Notes under the pieces: model-generated
Database searches by the model: none
Told to the model about the DNA's origin: nothing
Seen by the model: only the letters and a program-made list of their open reading frames with translations
Shown: piece after piece, positions 323-26,585 of the stretch
Layout of the letters: every line of letters starts with the position of its first letter
How positions within the stretch are numbered: position 1 is the first letter of the stretch
Translations under genes and position numbers: made by a program
NCBI GenBank assembly: GCA_026417495.1
Contig: JAOADD010000020.1
Span: 1-64,000, forward strand
Reading direction: 5' to 3'
Length of the DNA stretch: 64,000 nucleotides
Source: Ignavibacteria bacterium
Lineage (GTDB): Bacteria > Bacteroidota > Ignavibacteria > Tepidaquicellales > Tepidaquicellaceae

Positions 323-3300
323 TTATTCTTGATTATTATTTATTTCTTTTGGTGGTGTATTAAATTGTCTTATTATATCATCAATAATTCTTCGCTTAAT
401 AATGTCTTTATCATTATCATCAATTTGTTCATCCATAACAGAAGGTACAGATTTTGTAATTCCAAAGTCTCCTACTAATATTGCAACATCAAGAGCATCA
501 ACAGCACCATCACCATTCAAGTCACCACTCAGGTAACCAAAGTTTCCGAACTGTGGTATGAATAGCGCCACATCCAGAGCATCAACAGCACCATCTTGGT
601 TAAGATCACCCGCGTAAATTACCCAAACACTACCAAACTTTCTCATATTGAATCCAAAAGCTTTTGCAGAATCTGTTGTGAAATCATAACTTAATGGTGT
701 CCCTACAACGAAATTTTGTGGTAATCTACTCCAGGTTTCTAAGTGATTCCTATGTTTAATTACAATATAATAACTACCTGATGATTTTGCAAAATTCATA
801 TTTGCATTTCCTGTAGTGGAAAGAACTACTTTTTGCGAATCTACTAAAGCATATGGAGCAGTGCTATTTGCAATGTATACCCTAACTGTATCAACAACAT
901 GGGTAGTACCATTCCAGAATCCTTCCAGATAAACTTTTAAATTCAAGGTTAACACAGAAGGAATACCATTAAATTCATCTGCTCCAACATCAGGTGCTGT
1001 ACCACTACCTGTATATCCAGACTCACCCCATCTTACGTGACCATCATAATCATCCGGAATTGGGAAAGGAGATAGAATTCTTTGAGCACCACTTTCGCAT
1101 AGTGTGGGAACTGTAGTTTTCATATGTAAATCATAAGGTGAAGTTGCAACATTCACAAATGGTGGTTGTTCTGAGAATGAATTCGACTCCGCAGGTGCAA
1201 CTCTTGTTTTGAATGTTGAAAGTGTCGGATATAAAGTTGTACCATCATAATAATAGTAATTATTTCCTCCTGGAGTTATATACCAGCAATTATTGTTAGA
1301 TAAAATCGAATCATACACAGCAGTTGATGCTTTATATACTAACAGATTCGTACCTGTACCTGTTGGGAGAGCCTTATTTATAACAATATTGTTTCTAACT
1401 CTTGCAACAGTTGTTCCAGCAAAATAAAGAGCATATGCTGCGAAGTTAGTTCCCGTAGAAGTACTATCTATATATAAAGAGTTATATGTCAAGTGAGATG
1501 CTAATCCGCCATTTACCCAAATACCCAAAACACCAAGTCCAGTAGCACTTACTGGTGAATATAATTCATGAATCATATTATTGTAAACGAAGAATACAAC
1601 AGTTGCATTAGAATTATTCAAATACATACCATATACAGCAGGAGAACTTGCTGTATTATTAGATCTAATATTATAGAATCTATTTTTATATATTTTAGCT
1701 GTATCCGCATAGTTGACTTGTAGTGCTCCTGTTTGTCCTGTACCAGTATTAACAAGATTATAAACAGTATTTCCATAGATTTCTTTATCGGGAGAACCAC
1801 CTGAGCAAGCAAATATTCCAACTACTACACCTGATGTGATACTATTTAAATTGTAAATAGTGTTGTTGTACACATTTTCTGCTACTGTTCCAACTCCGAA
1901 ATTATAATATCCGTAGATAACTCCTGTGGTTCCATTATGTGCAATATTGAAAATATTATTATTATAATTTCTACTTATTGCACTACTATTGGATTGATAA
2001 ATCCCATAAATTGCTCCAGTAGTAGCGCCAGTTAATTTTGCTAAATTACTTACAGTATTATTATATACATTTACTTCTGCTACAGCAGGGATATAATAAA
2101 TACCTGCTAAGGTACCAGTAGTTGAAGCATTTGCAATACTATCAACTGTATTACCATTAATATTAGTTAATTGACCAGCACCAGAAGTATATATACCGTA
2201 GGTAGTTCCTGCACCAGCAGCTGATTGAGTTCTAATTAACCTCTTAACTGTATTTGATGAAATATTATATACAGAACCTGTTGTTGAGTTTGTTGAAGAT
2301 GTCCATATCCCGTATTGTGCACCAGTAGCTGTTGCTGATGCTCCTCCTCCTACTATATTATCCCTTATTATATTATTACTTACATTCAGGGTAAATGGAT
2401 TAGAAGTAACATATAGGTAATAACTTGTACCAGATGTAGCATTATAATAATTACAATTTCTTATCTGATTATTCTGGATATTTACAACATTATTCGTACC
2501 TGTAGCTCCCATTCCACAAGTAATTCCTGATAACTGAGTTGTCGTACCACCAGCAGTATCACTAACCACATTTCCTATAATATCAGCAGAAGAATTTATT
2601 CCAGTAGATAAGAAAATACCATAATTCGTAGCATTATTTGTCCATGTATTGATTCTAACTGTGTTATTCATTACTCTGATGCTATCCAAATATAAAGCAT
2701 ATATTCCATAGTGCGTATTAGTATTAGTGACACTTGCAAAACCTGAACCTATATTAATTAGATTATTCCCAGTTGTAGTACCAATATTATAGAAATGGTC
2801 ATACAAATCATACGGTGCACTAGCATTGAATCCTACAAAGTACATTCCATTGAAACTATTATTAATAGTACAACCTTGTATAGAAATATTCTCATGTCTT
2901 CCATCAATTGTGGTTGGATTCGTTGTATTGTGAGCAGCATCGACATTTAAAGTAGCAATACCACAAGATGAAACATTTGATTGTTGCATAAAGATATTAC
3001 AGTTCAATATGGAAACATTTTTGCATCCATTTGTTGAAGATGCCCTCACAAGTAAGAATCCATATTGCATTTTTAAGTTTTGGTCAGCACCAGTATAAAG
3101 CTCCTGCAAAGTAAATCCATCAAAAGTAATGAAATCTGTTCCTACTAATTCAAAGAATGCACAGCCATTTCCTCCAAGTGTAGTTGTTCCTACTGTTGCT
3201 GATCCACTTGGGCTAGATGATATAGTAGGATTCGCACCAGTTCCAAACTTTTGAAACACTACTGGATTACTTGCAGTAGGTGGATTGTTTGTTATGTTAA

Positions 3301-6300
3301 TTTGATATCCACAGGGTGGAATGGTTTCTGTATATCCTGCACTTACTCTGAATGTAACACCACCTGAACCAACCCCTGCAGTGTTCAATTCATTTATTGC
3401 AGCATTGATTGATGGATAATCTCCAGGGATATTTTTTATTCCTGTTAATGGTGGTGGTACATAAGTGTATTCATCAGCACCTATATCTGGAGTAGATGTA
3501 CTCCTTGGATTGTTATCAATATCATCGGGGACAGTTGAAATATATTTACCTGCGTTGTGTACTGGAGATGGGACACTTGGATTAATATGTAAATCAACAT
3601 TACTCACAAATTGTGGATTTCCACTTACACTATTTGAATCTCTTCCTGTTCCCGTTCTCCATGCTGAAAGATTTGCTCTATCTACTCCTCCGATGTATCC
3701 AAGATTCGGTCCTGATGTAAAATAACAATTATAATCTATGTCTTGAAATACAGTATTAGTAGCATTACATAATACTGCATAACGATTTACACCGACTGTT
3801 GCAGGTATTGAAAAAATATTATCCCTTATATTCAAGCAATTTGGTGTTGTTACCGATGAACTAATAATTAAGCAGGCAGGAGAACCTGATGAAGAAATTT
3901 GATTTGTTGCTAAATTAATAGAATTGAAATAAATATTATAACCACCACCTTGTGTGATATTAATTCCATATCCGTTCCATGTTGTTATTGAGGAATAGCC
4001 GTAAGCCGCTACATCCCAGATGAAATTATTCTGTACATTAATGTTAGCAGCAAGTAATGTTGATGAAAGATCTATACCATGAGCATTGTATCCACCACTA
4101 TTCATATTCTTTATATTGCTTATCTTATTCTTTTGAACCATAACTCCACCAGTGGCGCCAAATATATATATACCATAAGTAGTTGGTGTCGCTGCTGTAT
4201 ACATACTATCAATTATGTTTCCATTCAAATTAATATTAGAATTCGTAACACCAGAAGAGACAGCAATACCTCTTGGTCCAGCAGAAGTACCATTAATATT
4301 GAAAATTGTATTTAAAGATGCTTCACAATTAACAGCACCTGTTGCGAACCAAATTCCTGTTAAATTAGAAGCATCTGCTGTATTAATCATATTACCAATA
4401 TTATTTCCCGTAACTACAGCACCATCGGCACCCTGAACATAAACAGCAACTAATCTAACCTGACTTGCTAAATTATTAAAATCATTTCCAATTATTCTTA
4501 AGCCACTTCCATTCCCAGTTTGAACAAATGCATTTGTATAACAAGCAATATATGATAAACGGAAACTGTTATTCTGTATGATTATATTATTGAAAAATCC
4601 TGGATTACCTGGAGTTAAAGCATCCGAAACGATTAACGCAGAACTTGTATTTGCTCCATTTATAATTATACAATTTTTAACTGTATCTCCAACAATAGGA
4701 GTTGTTCCCAAAGAACCTATGACTATTACTTGAGGTGAAGTAGCACTAGTATTTGTTATTGTAAGATTTCTAGTAGTACCACCAACAGTATTAGAACCGT
4801 CAATTGATACATAGCTATTCCTGATTGAAAATACAGGTAAAGATGGTGCAGAACCTGCTATTGTAGGAGATAAACCAGCAGCTGGTTTAATAGTAACAGG
4901 TTTTGATGCTGATGGTAAATTTTCATTTGTGACATTTACTATTATTGGTAAAGTTTCTGTTGTATAAGCACTATCAACAAGGAGAAATCTTGTATATGCA
5001 CTAACACCTCTTAAATTTAAATCAGCAACTGCTGCTGTAATAGTTGCATAAACTCCCATCACACCAGCGGGATAGTTGTACTCTGGATGCTCGCTCTTTT
5101 TTACATACAAATCACCAGTATAAACTTTTCCATTTTCCATTGGTATATAGGAAATTTCCTCTACTTCTACAAGTTGAGTTTTTCCAGATATCTGATGCTT
5201 AACCCTTGATGAATCAATTGTTTTTGTATTTCTATCTTTTTGTTGTATGTTTTCCGTTTGAGGTTCATCTATTGGAACTTCTTTCAAAACTTTTTTAACT
5301 ACTTTTTCGAATCTTATATTTCTACCTGTTATAGAATTGAACATATTCAATCCGACAGTATAATCCCCTGCTAATGCAGACTGTGTAATTATATATCTAC
5401 TTGGATTTGTTGGTGGTATTGATGCAGCTGGGGGATCATATGTGAAGCCACCAGCACCAGCAGATGGAAATGCTCCTATATTTGGAGTAGGTGATTTCAT
5501 ATCTCTTGCAACTATGTAATATGATATTGTATCACCTACAGTAACTCCTGCACCAAACTGAAATGTATAATTTGGATATGATACACTAGTCGGTGCAACT
5601 CCTACATAAGGATTAGAACCTTTTCTCCAATACAAATGTGGCCAACCAGGAGCAGTTGTGGGTACACCACTCGGGTCACTAATTGTTGCAATTAGCGTTC
5701 TTGCTGAAGTACTACCCGTATTCAATAATGGCGTATAAACTATTGATGGCGGTAATAAATCAAGTGGTATTCCACCAAATTCATCTGCTCCAATATCTGG
5801 TGCTGAAGCTGGATATGATGGATGGACTGGATATCCAGGATTTGGATATCTTGGTTGATTATCAATGTCAGTAGTTATTGAGATAGGTGAAGAAACCGTT
5901 ATACCACCACTTTCACACTGTGTTGCGACAGTAGTGCTGAGATGAACATCGAAAGGATAAGTAGAAACATTAACAAATGGTGGATTTTCAGTAACTGAAT
6001 TATTATCTCTTGGTTCTACGAAAGCTTTATAAGCAGACAGTGTTTGAATGGAATTTGTACCATCGTAGAAAATCAATCTATTTGTTCCTGGTGTCCCTGC
6101 AAAGAATAGATTATTGTTTGATGTATTTAAATATGTTGATAATGTAGTTGAACTTCTGTAATATGCTGTTGTAAAACCAGATGTTGGACCTGGGGTGGAA
6201 ACATTAACAATAATATTATTTCTCATATCAAGATTAGGAGTAGTACTTGTATAAATACCAGCCGTTCCGAATGAACTTGTAGAAGAACTTATAGCATTTA

Positions 6301-8170
6301 AGTAGACAGTATTATTAAATAAATTATTCGTCGTCCCACCAGTAATGTAAAATCCACATACAGCTAAAGTACCCGTTGCTGTAGTCGCTCTTAAATCTGA
6401 AATCATATTATTATACCAATTATTAGTCGTTCCACTGGTAATAAATGCACCATAAACAGTACTACTTGTTGTATACAATGCTGTAACTCTATTATTATAT
6501 ACATTAGAAATTAATCCTGTTAAAGTATATATACCATAAACTGTACCACCTCCGGAATTTAAATTATATATCGTATCACCGTATATATTTTTATTCATAG
6601 AAGCAGAAGAGTAAATAGCCCAAATAGAGCCTGAACCAGCAATATTAATATCACTAATACTATTGTTAGCAATCGTAGCCGTCCCACCAGCTAATCCCGC
6701 GGAATGATAAATTGCATAAAATGAACCTGTGCTTGCATTTGGTCGTGTTACATTTTTAATTATATTGTTGTTACAATTAAAAACATTCATATTTGAACTA
6801 GAAGCATAAAGGCCATATCCTACTGAAGAACCTGGAGAGTTAAAATTCCTGATAATGTTATTATTCATATTCACTGTAGGAGCAGAAGTTGCTACCCAAA
6901 TGATATATGGTAAACCAGTACTCATAGTGGATTGAATCCTTGTATAGTCAGAAATTTCATTGTTATTCACATTCCAGATATTATTAGAAGTGGCACCACC
7001 AGCAGCATAAATAAAATAGTGAGTACCTGTTGCAGTTGCTGTTGAAGAACCATATGTATTATTTAAGATTTTATTACCATTAATATTTAGATTATATATA
7101 GAAGCACTGCTATAAATGTAATAAACAATCGCAGATGTAGCTGATGGATATGCACAATCTCTAATTACATTGTTATTGATATTAACAGTGTTATTGGTAC
7201 CAGATGATCCCATCAAATTATATATCATATAATGTGAACCAGTAGTACCACCTCCAACAAGTGTAATTGTGTCATTATAAACATCAACATTTGAATTAAC
7301 ACCTGTCCCTAAATAAATTCCATATAAAGTTGATGTAGAAGCAGCTCCTCCCTGATTATCAATACTTGTATTAAAAACTTTCACACCATTTTGATTTGTT
7401 GCAAACACACCGTATGCGGTCGTAGTACTTGCAAAATTGAAGATTCTACTTCTACCTGTACCAAATGTTCCTACTTCATTGTTTTGATCATAGAAAGCAT
7501 AGGGGGAAACATCAGAAAAGCCTGTGATTGAAACACCTGTGTTTACATTAGAAATTATGTTGCTGTAGAATTTGTTATTATTGTTCGCTCCACTTACTGA
7601 TGTTACTGTTAGTGATGTTGTTGAAGTTAGTGTATGATTTGCAGCATAAATTCCAACTGTACTGGTATTTGCTTTATTTAATGTAATGGCACAATTGATT
7701 ATTGTATTATTCTGACAACCATTAGTTCCATCTACTTTCAATAATGCAAATCCCCATTCCATCTGAGTAGTTGTAGTAGTATTCAATGTGCTTTCTTGTA
7801 GAGTTAGTCCATTAAATGTAACATAATCAGCACCATTTAATTTTATAATACCATCCAATGAACCAACACCAGTACCAGCTGTAATGGTTGGATTTGTACC
7901 TGCACCAGATTTAATGAAAACAATTTGATTAGATGAAGTACCCGATGCAGAAAGAACCAAATTTGCTGCTGTTTCTGTATGTCCAGCCAGTACATTAAAA
8001 GTAACTCCTCCTGACCCAACTCCAAAAGCATTTAAGGAGTCAAAAGCACTTGCTATTGTTGGGTAATTTGTACTTGGAATAGTCTTTGTCCCTGATACCT
8101 GCGAAATGGCATCCGTCGAAAATAATATAAATATAAAAGCAGATAAAAAGTAAATTATTGACTTTTTCAT
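323..8170 (-). CDS. Giant secreted right-handed beta-helix protein with a dockerin-like C-terminus
   Basis: This 2,615-residue protein has a signal peptide (about 1-24) and is then almost entirely short, Asn/Ser/Thr/Gly-rich parallel beta-helix rungs (repeated NNxI, GIY, VYNN patterns). Three modules are visible. Modules 1 and 3 begin with YPTI/YPSI...GVGSGGVTF (about residues 30 and 1,580), and module 2 begins with a diverged YATITAAVADLNLRGV (about 1,040). Each module ends with a P-D-[IV]-G-A-D-E motif (about 793, 1,567, 2,398). Near the end (about 2,517-2,568) lie two dockerin type I-like calcium loops, DLNQDGAVDALD and DLNGDGAVDALD. A charged 35-residue tail follows, with no recognisable T9SS sorting domain. 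Beta-helix proteins of this kind are often polysaccharide-binding or lyase-like surface proteins, but I see no catalytic motif, so no enzymatic role is claimed. Confidence 0.9.
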   Translation of the reverse strand: MKKSIIYFLSAFIFILFSTDAISQVSGTKTIPSTNYPTIASAFDSLNAFGVGSGGVTFNVLAGHTETAANLVLSASGTSSNQIVFIKSGAGTNPTITAGTGVGSLDGIIKLNGADYVTFNGLTLQESTLNTTTTTQMEWGFALLKVDGTNGCQNNTIINCAITLNKANTSTVGIYAANHTLTSTTSLTVTSVSGANNNNKFYSNIISNVNTGVSITGFSDVSPYAFYDQNNEVGTFGTGRSRIFNFASTTTAYGVFATNQNGVKVFNTSIDNQGGAASTSTLYGIYLGTGVNSNVDVYNDTITLVGGGTTGSHYMIYNLMGSSGTNNTVNINNNVIRDCAYPSATSAIVYYIYSSASIYNLNINGNKILNNTYGSSTATATGTHYFIYAAGGATSNNIWNVNNNEISDYTRIQSTMSTGLPYIIWVATSAPTVNMNNNIIRNFNSPGSSVGYGLYASSSNMNVFNCNNNIIKNVTRPNASTGSFYAIYHSAGLAGGTATIANNSISDINIAGSGSIWAIYSSASMNKNIYGDTIYNLNSGGGTVYGIYTLTGLISNVYNNRVTALYTTSSTVYGAFITSGTTNNWYNNMISDLRATTATGTLAVCGFYITGGTTNNLFNNTVYLNAISSSTSSFGTAGIYTSTTPNLDMRNNIIVNVSTPGPTSGFTTAYYRSSTTLSTYLNTSNNNLFFAGTPGTNRLIFYDGTNSIQTLSAYKAFVEPRDNNSVTENPPFVNVSTYPFDVHLSTTVATQCESGGITVSSPISITTDIDNQPRYPNPGYPVHPSYPASAPDIGADEFGGIPLDLLPPSIVYTPLLNTGSTSARTLIATISDPSGVPTTAPGWPHLYWRKGSNPYVGVAPTSVSYPNYTFQFGAGVTVGDTISYYIVARDMKSPTPNIGAFPSAGAGGFTYDPPAASIPPTNPSRYIITQSALAGDYTVGLNMFNSITGRNIRFEKVVKKVLKEVPIDEPQTENIQQKDRNTKTIDSSRVKHQISGKTQLVEVEEISYIPMENGKVYTGDLYVKKSEHPEYNYPAGVMGVYATITAAVADLNLRGVSAYTRFLLVDSAYTTETLPIIVNVTNENLPSASKPVTIKPAAGLSPTIAGSAPSLPVFSIRNSYVSIDGSNTVGGTTRNLTITNTSATSPQVIVIGSLGTTPIVGDTVKNCIIINGANTSSALIVSDALTPGNPGFFNNIIIQNNSFRLSYIACYTNAFVQTGNGSGLRIIGNDFNNLASQVRLVAVYVQGADGAVVTGNNIGNMINTADASNLTGIWFATGAVNCEASLNTIFNINGTSAGPRGIAVSSGVTNSNINLNGNIIDSMYTAATPTTYGIYIFGATGGVMVQKNKISNIKNMNSGGYNAHGIDLSSTLLAANINVQNNFIWDVAAYGYSSITTWNGYGINITQGGGYNIYFNSINLATNQISSSGSPACLIISSSVTTPNCLNIRDNIFSIPATVGVNRYAVLCNATNTVFQDIDYNCYFTSGPNLGYIGGVDRANLSAWRTGTGRDSNSVSGNPQFVSNVDLHINPSVPSPVHNAGKYISTVPDDIDNNPRSTSTPDIGADEYTYVPPPLTGIKNIPGDYPSINAAINELNTAGVGSGGVTFRVSAGYTETIPPCGYQINITNNPPTASNPVVFQKFGTGANPTISSSPSGSATVGTTTLGGNGCAFFELVGTDFITFDGFTLQELYTGADQNLKMQYGFLLVRASSTNGCKNVSILNCNIFMQQSNVSSCGIATLNVDAAHNTTNPTTIDGRHENISIQGCTINNSFNGMYFVGFNASAPYDLYDHFYNIGTTTGNNLINIGSGFASVTNTNTHYGIYALYLDSIRVMNNTVRINTWTNNATNYGIFLSTGINSSADIIGNVVSDTAGGTTTQLSGITCGMGATGTNNVVNIQNNQIRNCNYYNATSGTSYYLYVTSNPFTLNVSNNIIRDNIVGGGASATATGAQYGIWTSSTNSTTGSVYNISSNTVKRLIRTQSAAGAGTTYGIYTSGAGQLTNINGNTVDSIANASTTGTLAGIYYIPAVAEVNVYNNTVSNLAKLTGATTGAIYGIYQSNSSAISRNYNNNIFNIAHNGTTGVIYGYYNFGVGTVAENVYNNTIYNLNSITSGVVVGIFACSGGSPDKEIYGNTVYNLVNTGTGQTGALQVNYADTAKIYKNRFYNIRSNNTASSPAVYGMYLNNSNATVVFFVYNNMIHELYSPVSATGLGVLGIWVNGGLASHLTYNSLYIDSTSTGTNFAAYALYFAGTTVARVRNNIVINKALPTGTGTNLLVYKASTAVYDSILSNNNCWYITPGGNNYYYYDGTTLYPTLSTFKTRVAPAESNSFSEQPPFVNVATSPYDLHMKTTVPTLCESGAQRILSPFPIPDDYDGHVRWGESGYTGSGTAPDVGADEFNGIPSVLTLNLKVYLEGFWNGTTHVVDTVRVYIANSTAPYALVDSQKVVLSTTGNANMNFAKSSGSYYIVIKHRNHLETWSRLPQNFVVGTPLSYDFTTDSAKAFGFNMRKFGSVWVIYAGDLNQDGAVDALDVALFIPQFGNFGYLSGDLNGDGAVDALDVAILVGDFGITKSVPSVMDEQIDDNDKDIIKRRIIDDIIRQFNTPPKEINNNQE

Positions 8171-8523: not shown

Positions 8524-9921
8524 ATGCAAAAGTCAAAGACACAAATACTAATCTCATCATTAACAAAGAGGGAATTAAAAAACTTTGACAAATTTATTAA
8601 CTATTATGCAAAATGCAAAGAGAAAGATGTATTGAAATATTGGAAGATGATTTATTCCAAAAAGAACAATTGCCTTAAGGAATTTAAAAATGATACAAAA
8701 TTTTCACGAAAAATACTCTCTGATTTTAATAAAATTATTGAAAAATTTTTTATCTTTAATAATATTAAAGAAGATGAAGTAACAAAAATTTTGATACTCT
8801 CTCGTGAATTCAGAAAGAGAAATATCAAGAAATATTTTTCAAAGCTAATAAATGAGATGAAAGAGATTAAAAGTAAGACACCTCTAAGTAACCCTAAAAA
8901 TAGATTAACATTGCTAAACATAAACTTTGAAAAATATTTGTTATATAGTGGTTGTGATGATTATCCAAATCTTTATAAAATTGCAAAAGAAGAAAATAAA
9001 ATTTCTGAAATCGTAACTATTTACAGTAAATTATTTGAATATTTCAACAGAATTTATTGTAAGGATTTAAGTAATAATGAAGATGAAGAATTAATTAAAA
9101 TTGAAGATGTAATAAAATATATTAAAAAACACGATAGTTATATAAAAGAGAATTATCCAAATATTTATGCTCTATATCTTCTTTATGAAATATTAAATGA
9201 TTTTTTAAACTATCAAAAAATAAATGACTTATTAGAATATCTAAAAAATAATGATAAATACTTAGCAGAGGAATCATTACAATTTTGTTATGATTCGTTA
9301 TTTGAGTTTCTAATAAAGTTTATCGAATCAGGTAATATCCATTTATACAACCATTTCTACAAAACATTCTTAGATTTAGAAACGAGGGGAGTTTTAAAAA
9401 ATTTGATTCATATAAGACCAAAATATTTCCCTATTTTTGTAGGAATGATTCTTGATAAAAAAGGTATAAATGACACTTTAACATTCATAAATGAAAATAA
9501 AGAAAAAATTCATGAAGATTTTACTGAACAAGTTTATCTAATTAGTATAGCAAAAGTAGAATTTCATAAAAAAAATTACAATAAGGTAAAAGAAATACTT
9601 TTAAAAATTAAAACAAATGATCCATTTCTATATTTATATCAGAAAACATTATTAATAAAAACATACTTTGAAAAAGGAGAATTTAATTTTCTGTATCCAT
9701 TATCTGATGCAATAAAACATTATATAAATAGAAAATTCTCATCGAACCATATTATTAATAACATCAATACATTTCTAATCTGTGTAAGTAAACTTTCTTC
9801 TTTTAAAAAAGCTAAGACAAAATCACTTGACTTTGTAAAAAACTGCATTAATAGTAGTCACTACTTTTTAGAAAAAGAATGGATCGCTGAAAAATATAAA
9901 GAATTAATTAAGGAAAATTGA
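8524..9921 (+). CDS. Unrecognised 465-residue helical protein, possibly TPR-like
   Basis: I do not recognise a defined family. The protein is very rich in Lys, Ile, Asn and Glu, is predicted to be almost all helix, and has no signal peptide or membrane segment. Its N-terminus (SSLTKRELKNFDKFINYY) resembles the opening of large cytoplasmic hypothetical proteins of Bacteroidota/Chlorobi that begin 'L-[ST]-K-x-E-[LF]-x-x-F-x-x-F' and continue into TPR-like helical hairpins. The stretch at about 345-400 (EQVYLISIAKVEFHKKNYNKV) fits a TPR hairpin. It stands alone on the forward strand, with a divergent neighbour to the left and a convergent TonB receptor 39 bp to the right. Function is unknown; a scaffolding role is only a guess from the helical repeats. 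Confidence 0.8.
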   Translation: MQKSKTQILISSLTKRELKNFDKFINYYAKCKEKDVLKYWKMIYSKKNNCLKEFKNDTKFSRKILSDFNKIIEKFFIFNNIKEDEVTKILILSREFRKRNIKKYFSKLINEMKEIKSKTPLSNPKNRLTLLNINFEKYLLYSGCDDYPNLYKIAKEENKISEIVTIYSKLFEYFNRIYCKDLSNNEDEELIKIEDVIKYIKKHDSYIKENYPNIYALYLLYEILNDFLNYQKINDLLEYLKNNDKYLAEESLQFCYDSLFEFLIKFIESGNIHLYNHFYKTFLDLETRGVLKNLIHIRPKYFPIFVGMILDKKGINDTLTFINENKEKIHEDFTEQVYLISIAKVEFHKKNYNKVKEILLKIKTNDPFLYLYQKTLLIKTYFEKGEFNFLYPLSDAIKHYINRKFSSNHIINNINTFLICVSKLSSFKKAKTKSLDFVKNCINSSHYFLEKEWIAEKYKELIKEN

Positions 9922-23606: not shown

Positions 23607-26585
23607 CTACTTTAAATAAACCATTCTCTTAACTGAAGAAAATTCTGGCGTTTCAAGTTTATAAAAGTAAATGCCGGATGTCAGGTTTTCAGCATTAAAC
23701 GTTACTTCATACATACCACCTAATAATTTTTCATTAACCAATGTGGCAACCTCCCTACCTATTAAATCATATATTTTTAATCGCACAATCGTTTCTGTAT
23801 TATATGGTATACTAAATTTTATGGTTGTAGTAGGATTAAATGGATTTGGATAATTTTGGAACAAATTGTATTCAGTTGGAACGGTATTTATTATTGGTTT
23901 AATACCTATTGGGGTACCAGTCCCTCCCGAAAACATTACTACTCTTCCATCTCTACAACCAGCAACAAACTCCGTTGTAGAATTTCCATCTATACTGTTA
24001 ATTGCTTCTACTCTATCCGCTCTGTATGTAACAGTAGAACCAAATGAATACTCGAAAAGTGTATTTCCATTAACACCATTCATCACTATTACCTTTCCTG
24101 GTGTTTGCATTGCAACTGCAATATCTCTTTTACCATCATTGTTTACATCAGAAAGGAAAGTAGCATCTCTTATATAAGATGCAGCAGGATTAACAGACCA
24201 TAAAGTACTATAAGTTTTTGTATCAACCCTATAAACAGTTTGAGGTCCAGACATAGTGAAATCTATATATCCATTGGAATCAAGGTCATCTAAAAGAATT
24301 ATAGTTCCATTATTTCCACTACCAAAACTTTGTTGCCAATGCAATTGACCATTATCACTTGCAACACAAAAAACAGTACTACTAAATCCAAAGAAACCTA
24401 TTATCTCTGTAATTGTATCCGTGTTGATTGATGGAATCTCGCGCATAGACCATATTTTACCAGTTGTATTGTATGTCCATATTGTTGTACCTGAATTATT
24501 AAATCCTTTTACAGAATATGCTCCACTATTACTACCATTTCCAATAGCTCCTCCAATTTGTGTGCAAACAACATCTCCCGTAAAATCTGACGGTTGAGTT
24601 ACATAAAAAATCTCAGCCCCATTTAGTCCATTCAAGCATATTAAAGCATGTCTACCACCTGTACCAGTACCTGTTCCGCTAGCTGAAACAAGAACATCTT
24701 TCACACCATCACCATTATAATCTTTATCAACCCTAACAGCTTCAATATCACCAAGGCTGTAGTTTATAGAATCACCATATAACCAAATTAACTGTCCAGT
24801 TCTACCTGATATAGTATAAACCATTTCATTCCCACCGCCACATCCAAACACAACATCCTGAATTCCATCTCCATTTACATCAGTACGCACTTGCAATCCA
24901 TCTTCCCAAAGAACGGCTCCTGTGTTATTATTGTTATATCCTGTATTAAATATCCATAAAATATCTGCTGAAACAGAAGAATTACCATTATAACAAGTAA
25001 CTAAATAATTTCCTGAACTAATAACTACATCATTTACACCATCGTTATTTACATCTTGAATTTGTTTAATACTTGTGGGTTGATAATCATCATAACCAGT
25101 AAATGGATTATCAGGACAGTTACCTTGCCAGTATATAGTCCCAAGATTATTTGGTGGAATTATACCTTGTCCTGAAAGATATAATTTTGCTTGTGGTTTG
25201 TTTACAGCATTAGATAAGATAGTAAGTGAATCTATGAATGTAGCAGTAGAATTTGGATTAAACCAAACCCTGAATGTTCGTGTCTTTTGTGTATCTATTG
25301 TAACGGGAAATTGTAGTAAAGTTGTATCAAGTCTATATCTTGGAGTTGATGTTTGCATAGATGTGATAACAAGCGGAGCATTACCCGTATTTGTAATATT
25401 AAACTTAAAACCACATAGAGAATTCACTCTTCTCTGGTTATAATTATAATTAGAATCAGATAGTACTATGAAACTACCATTTTGAATCCCTTTACCCCTT
25501 AATTCTACTATTTTAGTGGGAGTCAAAACATCATTACTCTGTATCTGTAATTGACCATAAACAGTATCAGTTACTAAAGGAGTAAAGGACATTATATAAT
25601 TTTTAGATTGATTCGGATTGAGAGTATCAGGTACATTGTTTGGAGAAATACCGAACCTTGGATTTGTTATAATTTTCCCCGTTATTATTAACTTTGCAGT
25701 TCCAAGATTCGAAATAGTTAAATTATAAGTAGCAGTAGTACCTACAATGACATTGCCAAAATTAATTGAAGAAGTTGAAGTACTAATTATTGGATTCCCT
25801 TGATTTGAAATTGCATACTTATAAAGCTGTCTATAAGCGTAAGCACTTCCTCCAGGTCTAAAAGCAATTAAATAAAGATGTTGCCCATCCCAATAGAGTC
25901 CTCTCGGGTCACAATCATTATCAGAATCAGGTGCAGGAAACGAAAAGAGTGTATCCCCAATCGCTTTTCTATAAGCATAAATTCTCTCTTGTTCGTTATG
26001 AAAATTATCATTAACATAAAATATTGTATCACCCTTAACTGCAATACCCTGTACTTGTCTACCTCTAAGTGGAATAGTATCAACAAGTTGCTTTGTTGTC
26101 AAATTGATTTTATATGCATATGCATTAGGATAACTAGCATAATCAGGATAATAAACAGCAAACCAAAGATTATTTCCATCAAGAGCAATACCTCCAATCC
26201 CTTGTGCATAACTACCCGTATAAATACTATCAACAGCAACACCAAGAGCATTAATTTTGTAAATCCTTGCACCCGCAGAACGATAATCTTCAGCGATCCA
26301 AAATCCAGACCCATCCCAAGCAAGCCCGTGGTTGAATTTAAAGGGTGTCATTAAACTATCTACAATGATTCCTGTTTTTGTAACCTTATACAAATACGCA
26401 TAAGGATATCCTGTACCATCGAAATCAGAACCAATCCATAATGTATCATTTCTTTGCGTAACACCCCAAAAGTAATTATAAGGGTTGTGATAAGGAAAAG
26501 GATATACAGCAATTAATGTTTGTGAATATACTACACTATTTATCAATAAAAAAGAAAGGAAAATTAATTTGATTACGGTTTTCAT
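23607..26585 (-). CDS. Large T9SS-exported protein: beta-propellers, Ig-like domains, FG-GAP-like repeats
   Basis: This 992-residue protein has a signal peptide (1-21). An N-terminal beta-propeller-like region follows (about 25-260; repeated YLYKV, RIYKI, YAYKI blades). Two choice-of-anchor-D/ASPM-like Ig domains lie at about 265-370 (INFGNVIVGTTATYNLTISN) and 372-475. Then come FG-GAP/VCBS-type blades with calcium loops (VNNDGVNDVV, VNGDGIQDVV, YNGDGVKDVL, VNNDGKRDIA; about 485-905). The C-terminus is a T9SS type A sorting domain (about 915-992): YPNPFNPTTTIKFSIP, RLKIYDLIGREVATL, SGIYFYKLETP. It should be carried across the outer membrane and attached to the surface or released. The Ca-loop propeller suggests ligand or integrin-like binding; no enzyme motif is visible. 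Confidence 0.93.
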   Translation of the reverse strand: MKTVIKLIFLSFLLINSVVYSQTLIAVYPFPYHNPYNYFWGVTQRNDTLWIGSDFDGTGYPYAYLYKVTKTGIIVDSLMTPFKFNHGLAWDGSGFWIAEDYRSAGARIYKINALGVAVDSIYTGSYAQGIGGIALDGNNLWFAVYYPDYASYPNAYAYKINLTTKQLVDTIPLRGRQVQGIAVKGDTIFYVNDNFHNEQERIYAYRKAIGDTLFSFPAPDSDNDCDPRGLYWDGQHLYLIAFRPGGSAYAYRQLYKYAISNQGNPIISTSTSSINFGNVIVGTTATYNLTISNLGTAKLIITGKIITNPRFGISPNNVPDTLNPNQSKNYIMSFTPLVTDTVYGQLQIQSNDVLTPTKIVELRGKGIQNGSFIVLSDSNYNYNQRRVNSLCGFKFNITNTGNAPLVITSMQTSTPRYRLDTTLLQFPVTIDTQKTRTFRVWFNPNSTATFIDSLTILSNAVNKPQAKLYLSGQGIIPPNNLGTIYWQGNCPDNPFTGYDDYQPTSIKQIQDVNNDGVNDVVISSGNYLVTCYNGNSSVSADILWIFNTGYNNNNTGAVLWEDGLQVRTDVNGDGIQDVVFGCGGGNEMVYTISGRTGQLIWLYGDSINYSLGDIEAVRVDKDYNGDGVKDVLVSASGTGTGTGGRHALICLNGLNGAEIFYVTQPSDFTGDVVCTQIGGAIGNGSNSGAYSVKGFNNSGTTIWTYNTTGKIWSMREIPSINTDTITEIIGFFGFSSTVFCVASDNGQLHWQQSFGSGNNGTIILLDDLDSNGYIDFTMSGPQTVYRVDTKTYSTLWSVNPAASYIRDATFLSDVNNDGKRDIAVAMQTPGKVIVMNGVNGNTLFEYSFGSTVTYRADRVEAINSIDGNSTTEFVAGCRDGRVVMFSGGTGTPIGIKPIINTVPTEYNLFQNYPNPFNPTTTIKFSIPYNTETIVRLKIYDLIGREVATLVNEKLLGGMYEVTFNAENLTSGIYFYKLETPEFSSVKRMVYLK

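Follow-up and report, generated by a model that had tools for sequence, protein, structure and literature searches.

An X-domain/dockerin-like module that substitutes for the T9SS tail in secreted proteins of Ignavibacteria, a candidate attachment tail

Besides their loop contacts, cellulosomal dockerins touch the cohesin at positions 17, 18 and 22, in the helix that follows the calcium loop. The type II X-module/dockerin dyad was first described as binding in a single mode, and it is in type I dockerins that the two loops typically agree. According to the literature, the cohesin contacts within the loops of cellulosomal dockerins are positions 10 and 11 (numbered 11 and 12 in PMC5301203), and symmetric residues in the two dockerin repeats permit two binding modes (PMC5301203). 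In type II dyads, the X-module has an Ig-like fold of seven strands and packs against the dockerin (PMC5141474). A dockerin/cohesin system with a large cohesin scaffold has been described in Cloacimonadota (Ca. Stygibacter; PMC8542988), and no dockerin was reported for the cellulases of Melioribacter roseus (PMC3534657). In a literature search that covered few subscription papers, no description was found of the module reported here or of dockerin tails replacing T9SS tails.

The window, that is, the whole stretch of DNA that was analysed, comprises 64,000 nucleotides of an Ignavibacteria bacterium (GCA_026417495.1, contig JAOADD010000020.1). The ORF list and translation upheld the 2,615-residue ORF from which the preliminary description had started. 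The protein, designated P0001, and its parts are laid out as follows.

323..8170, minus strand: P0001, secreted multidomain protein of 2,615 aa (ORF and translation)
8102..8170, minus strand: Sec signal peptide, residues 1-23, MKKSIIYFLSAFIFILFSTDAIS (read off the translation)
5771..8080, minus strand: beta-helix module 1, A type, residues 31-800 (likeness to module 3)
5051..5770, minus strand: linker between repeat modules, residues 801-1040, without a Pfam match (translation and Pfam)
3461..5050, minus strand: beta-helix module 2, B type, residues 1041-1570 (distant from modules 1 and 3)
962..3436, minus strand: beta-helix module 3, A type, residues 1579-2403 (AlphaFold and Foldseek)
614..952, minus strand: X-like Ig domain with the KHRNHLETWS motif, residues 2407-2519 (pLDDT about 98; structural alignment)
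443..613, minus strand: dockerin with two calcium loops, residues 2520-2576 (PF00404 and predicted structure)
572..607, minus strand: calcium loop 1, DLNQDGAVDALD, residues 2522-2533, positions 10-11 Ala-Leu (sequence)
488..523, minus strand: calcium loop 2, DLNGDGAVDALD, residues 2550-2561, positions 10-11 Ala-Leu (sequence)
326..442, minus strand: charged tail after the X-dockerin module, residues 2577-2615, one predicted helix

The preliminary description had taken P0001 for a triplicated beta-helix protein. The fold is supported by the AlphaFold model of module 3 (pTM 0.81, pLDDT 74.5, from an alignment of six sequences only), which shows the coils of a right-handed beta-helix and the best Foldseek matches of which in the PDB are beta-helix proteins, albeit with low TM-scores. 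The triplication held in part. In the self-alignment, modules 1 and 3 are close copies (34% identity over 835 columns, E 1e-108), whereas module 2 is distant and aligns to them only in pieces (26-28% identity, E 1e-11 to 1e-12). The three PD[IV]GADE ends are present at residues 791, 1561 and 2393; the GVGSGGVTF-type start ascribed to all three modules is not, as module 2 begins with GVSAYTRFLL. In the relatives L037 and L046, full-length B-type homologues are found directly before the tail module, the domain order being A-type helix, B-type helix, tail. Thus, it seems from this order that P0001 acquired a second A-type helix ahead of the tail.

The two DxNxDG loops, read earlier as a dockerin pair, were located at residues 2522 and 2550, and the dockerin was confirmed by a match to Pfam Dockerin_1 (PF00404) above the cut-off (27.8 bits against 22.9, E 3e-6), the only Pfam match in full-length P0001; the excised module scores 38.5 bits (E 1.3e-9). 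Positions 10-11 are identical in the two loops. The dockerin is not the isolated domain that it had been thought to be: the roughly 113 residues before it are part of its module, and it is followed by a charged tail of 39 residues that had been overlooked. The conserved module thus spans residues 2407-2576, some 170 in all, and joins an Ig-like domain to the dockerin; a KHRNxxETWS motif is conserved in the Ig half, for which neither Pfam nor NCBIfam holds a family. Structure prediction (pLDDT 95, alignment of 71 sequences) upheld the dockerin, and in the predicted model the Ig-like domain is packed on it as in type II X-module/dockerin dyads. The best PDB matches to the model are all type II X-dockerins covering both domains, with 4wi0_B as the top Foldseek match (E 9.8e-8), and structural alignment to the CipA/ScaA X-dockerin gave Z 13.5 over 142 residues (rmsd 3.2 Å), compared with Z 7.2 for the next unrelated chain. 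As predicted by the model, the dockerin of P0001 is one half of an X-domain/dockerin dyad.

The absence of a T9SS tail from P0001, remarked on in the preliminary description, was borne out: TIGR04183, PF18962 and CHU_C gave no match at E<=1, nor did profile searches bring up a diverged form of such a tail among the last 40 residues. Neither a failure of the dockerin profile nor such a diverged tail, the two outcomes that would have spoken against the earlier reading of this C-terminus, was encountered. The protein at 23607-26585 of the same window, put forward as the T9SS-tailed counterpart, does match the T9SS tail model, and the contrast between P0001 and such relatives proved to be general, since homologous proteins bear one tail or the other. 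Among the beta-helix homologues of P0001, the T9SS tail was found in 18 ORFs, the X-dockerin module in 14, and both in none; the loci were picked for holding the module or the beta-helix, so that these counts prove that exchange happens and do not give its genome-wide frequency. The remaining homologues are truncated or have other endings, some being visibly interrupted by unknown bases. A T9SS-tailed homologue of the N-terminal part exists for 127 of the 202 distinct module proteins, and only one ORF (L069, +/0/1846) carries both tails, the module followed by the T9SS tail.

The exchange can be followed to the residue in a tandem pair of putative S1/P1-like nucleases in genome G023 (L234, same contig as L081; SZAS-89), which share 86% identity up to a common residue; beyond ...SSLIYTAWVNS, the module follows in one and a T9SS tail in the other. 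These paralogues constitute a natural experiment on tail function. On sequence grounds, homologous proteins carry the X-dockerin module as a substitute for the T9SS tail.

T9SS tails are abundant in every relative, and SprA is present in 13 of 13 genomes examined. Since a full T9SS occurs in all of the genomes considered here, it is conceivable that the module is a T9SS signal in its own right, a new class of export tail with the dyad recognised by translocon or shuttle proteins as type A and B tails are. Its position on homologous proteins, the company of SprA and of many type A tails in all examined carriers, and the Ig-like sandwich of the X half, a fold that T9SS tails also have (8qb1_A at Z 4.8), would agree with this. 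On the other hand, no T9SS tail profile matches the module, and the X half is at least as close to many unrelated Ig folds as to the T9SS tail. A further objection comes from the lineage-specific face of the dockerin described below, which is expected of a docking interface, whereas a shared translocon would be expected to vary less between lineages. Taken together, a new T9SS signal class is considered unlikely.

The window genome has a single module gene, and the module occurs in 34 of 59 relatives. In a survey made up mostly of fragmented MAGs it is sparse across the phylum (35 of 296 genomes). Eight genomes of the same family each hold at least 52 copies, which are lower bounds (at least 52 scored matches, from 65 to 147 candidates). 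Of the 144 complete copies from the module-rich genomes, 125 have their end no more than 6 residues from that of the protein, and proline is the last residue in 124. Near relatives of P0001 carry a charged extension of about 20-50 residues after the module, which is mostly absent where the module is amplified. A simple hydrophobicity test recognised a signal-peptide-like start in 94 of 98 complete module proteins. According to a Pfam survey, the cargo includes BNR/YCF48 propellers, M23 and S8 peptidases, metallophosphatases, FG-GAP and lectin-like domains, with few polysaccharide enzymes. Module-bearing genes (about 830-860 aa each) stand in tandem arrays on single contigs in L195, L076, L085 and L093, which suggests local amplification.

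A lineage signal was found at loop positions 10 and 17. A first sample of 93 module copies placed these positions, in both loops, among the most genome-specific columns. A larger sample, with 140 copies from eight module-rich genomes, overlaps the first in genomes and is therefore an extension and not an independent replication; it gave genome-specificity indices of 0.50, 0.57, 0.54 and 0.45 for positions 10 and 17 of the two loops (ranks 4, 1, 2 and 5 of 106 variable columns). Most module positions in these 140 copies and eight genomes carry no lineage signal, the mean index of the variable Ig-half columns being 0.02, and position 11 reaches a weak 0.16. At the genus level, the observed value was 0.464, compared with a maximum of 0.056 in 500 label shuffles. 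Position 10 is Leu in both loops in 27 of 27 copies from genus g2, mostly Ala in g14, and Leu, Ile or Val in g13.

To control for relatedness, pairs were compared at equal Ig-half identity (30-60%). Within this range, positions 10 and 17 agree in about 61% of the cases within a genus and in 21-27% between genera; for the other variable dockerin positions of the same pairs, the values are 32-36% and 25-27%, respectively. Thus, paralogues that are seemingly older than the genus split share contact residues within each genus. Gene conversion is disfavoured, since it should have carried neighbouring positions along, which was not seen. The simplest reading would be that there is one shared partner per lineage, and we infer a lineage-specific receptor for the module. 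A mere calcium-stabilised end cap, protecting the C-terminus without any partner, would suit a compact and nearly always terminal module with no recognisable receptor; however, a cap needs no genus-fixed positions 10 and 17 in both repeats while the rest of the module drifts, and it leaves the strict exchange with a localisation tail unexplained. This explanation is regarded as very improbable.

The obvious partner of a dockerin is a cohesin, and the preliminary description had not expected cellulosome-like systems in this group. At the sequence level, the window genome yielded no match to PF00963 up to E<=10 and none to a clade-specific cohesin profile, and so shows no sign of the cohesin-bearing scaffold, encoded in the same genome, by which a cellulosome is recognised. 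The eight module-rich genomes gave no PF00963 match above the cut-off, with hits listed up to E 10, and none to the clade's own profile. Those of the sub-threshold hits that were inspected proved unrelated, among them a TonB-type receptor and an outer-membrane POTRA/barrel protein, and were set aside. The clade's own profile was positive in 3 of 29 genomes of the family, all of one genus and with three cohesins each. In two of them (G009 and G026) the cohesin ORF also bears the module, and in the third (G027) that ORF was seen only in part, its end being out of view. The protein of G009 (L044) is scaffoldin-like, with three cohesins and a terminal X-dockerin module, and two other Bacteroidota MAGs (L103, L106) combine three cohesins and a C-terminal module in one protein. 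The earlier expectation therefore stood insofar as no cohesin is detectable in the window genome or the module-rich genomes, but did not hold for the sister genus with its three-cohesin, module-ended protein, and other sister genera hold the module in very large numbers. A putative scaffold-like layout occurs among these bacteria, though outside the genomes rich in the module.

These proteins also speak for a true cellulosome-like system, in which cohesins too diverged for sequence profiles would sit on a T9SS-anchored scaffold; cohesin partners would likewise suit the fold of the X-dockerin and its lineage-specific loop positions. It is difficult to reconcile such a system with the failure of both the Pfam Cohesin and the clade profile in module-rich genomes, each of which has more than 50 dockerins in need of receptors, or with a diverse cargo poor in polysaccharide enzymes, and it is rated as quite unlikely, slightly below the T9SS-signal explanation. 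As no cohesin was detected in the window genome or in any of the module-rich genomes, the case for docking comes from evolution and fold.

Genes near module genes, the neighbour of P0001 among them, were also considered as a source of the receptor.

8524..9921, plus strand: neighbour of the P0001 gene, divergent, 465 aa, without a Pfam match, from a multi-copy family

Its product is K/N-rich and without an obvious signal peptide. The family, which is the only widespread non-secreted family near module genes, numbers 0 to 54 copies per genome within the bacterial family; the window genome has a single copy, adjoining its only module gene. In most of the loci examined (including L215, L231, L247, L254, L268, L289 and L290), it lies on the opposite strand to secreted-protein genes of either tail type, mostly no more than a few hundred bases away. 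Copy numbers of the family and the module are correlated across 29 genomes (Spearman 0.66), although some genomes have many copies of the family and few modules. The lack of an obvious signal peptide and the presence beside T9SS-tail genes make it a poor receptor candidate, and it was rejected as such.

Based on these results, it is moderately probable that the X-dockerin dyad is a C-terminal attachment tail, used in the T9SS tail's stead and docking to a lineage-specific receptor. P0001 would leave the cytoplasm via Sec, by means of its signal peptide, and a module-tailed protein would arrive where its T9SS-tailed homologues reside, probably on the outer surface. There, the calcium-loaded dockerin would plug into the receptor, through either of two symmetric faces around loop positions 10 and 17, and hold the protein in place. 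The receptor would differ by lineage and, in the window genome, would not be a sequence-recognisable cohesin. Three points do not fit this reading well: position 11 is weak and 17 strong, whereas cellulosomal dockerins stress 10 and 11; the loop agreement is type I-like, yet the predicted fold is that of a type II dyad; and the window genome has only one module gene. The broader proposal can be made only tentatively, namely that Ignavibacteria possess a second localisation tail in mass use, an X-dockerin interchangeable with the T9SS tail, and that a lineage-specific non-cohesin receptor coevolves with all (at least 52) tails of a genome.

If true, a whole bacterial group would possess a mode of protein attachment not described before, in which a plug of cellulosome style, lacking a recognisable socket, does duty for the T9SS tail. 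The attachment-tail reading predicts that the receptor could be obtained with the module as bait, and that searches for T9SS tails alone would miss dozens of module-tailed secreted proteins in the surface proteomes of the richest genomes. Lineage-specific loop positions would also mean that a docking interface may be read from genome data without knowing the partner.

Among the known systems, the T9SS tail of type A (TIGR04183, Por_Secre_tail) resembles the module in its place on homologues and its many copies per genome, and both are C-terminal, associated with an Ig-like domain and found on signal-peptide proteins. They differ in that the module has a dockerin and no sequence match to the tail, and in that its last residue is usually proline, in contrast to the Lys or Arg at the end of the T9SS tails observed here. 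GC-type dockerin domain-anchored proteins (NF041540) likewise have a dockerin as a repeated C-terminal tail, and 4 of 13 module members match that model at E<=0.1; the window module, at 21.2 bits, falls under the curated cut-off of 29, and there is no sign of the same X-domain in that family. As in Ca. Stygibacter, where the scaffold bears a T9SS-type tail (PMC8542988), C-terminal dockerins are carried by secreted proteins in a Gram-negative group, but the large cohesin scaffold of that system has no detectable equivalent in the module-rich genomes.

The module shares with the type I dockerins of cellulosomal enzymes the PF00404 match, loops with the same contact residues, and lineage-specificity of these residues. 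It departs from them in having little lineage signal at position 11 and much at 17, in the fused X-like domain, and in a cargo that is mostly not carbohydrate-active. In fold, the closest counterpart is the type II dyad of CipA/ScaA (Clostridium thermocellum, Acetivibrio cellulolyticus; 4wi0, 2b59, 5m0y), which is also C-terminal and has an Ig-like X-domain on a two-loop dockerin, with the same relative arrangement of both domains in the predicted model. Identity to it is only about 20%, the module loops agree at the contact positions in a type I-like manner, most carrier genomes are without a detected cohesin, and the module is borne not by a scaffold but by tens of diverse cargo proteins per genome. 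We infer that an orphan X-dockerin serves Ignavibacteria as a general attachment tail, a known type of dyad in a new use.
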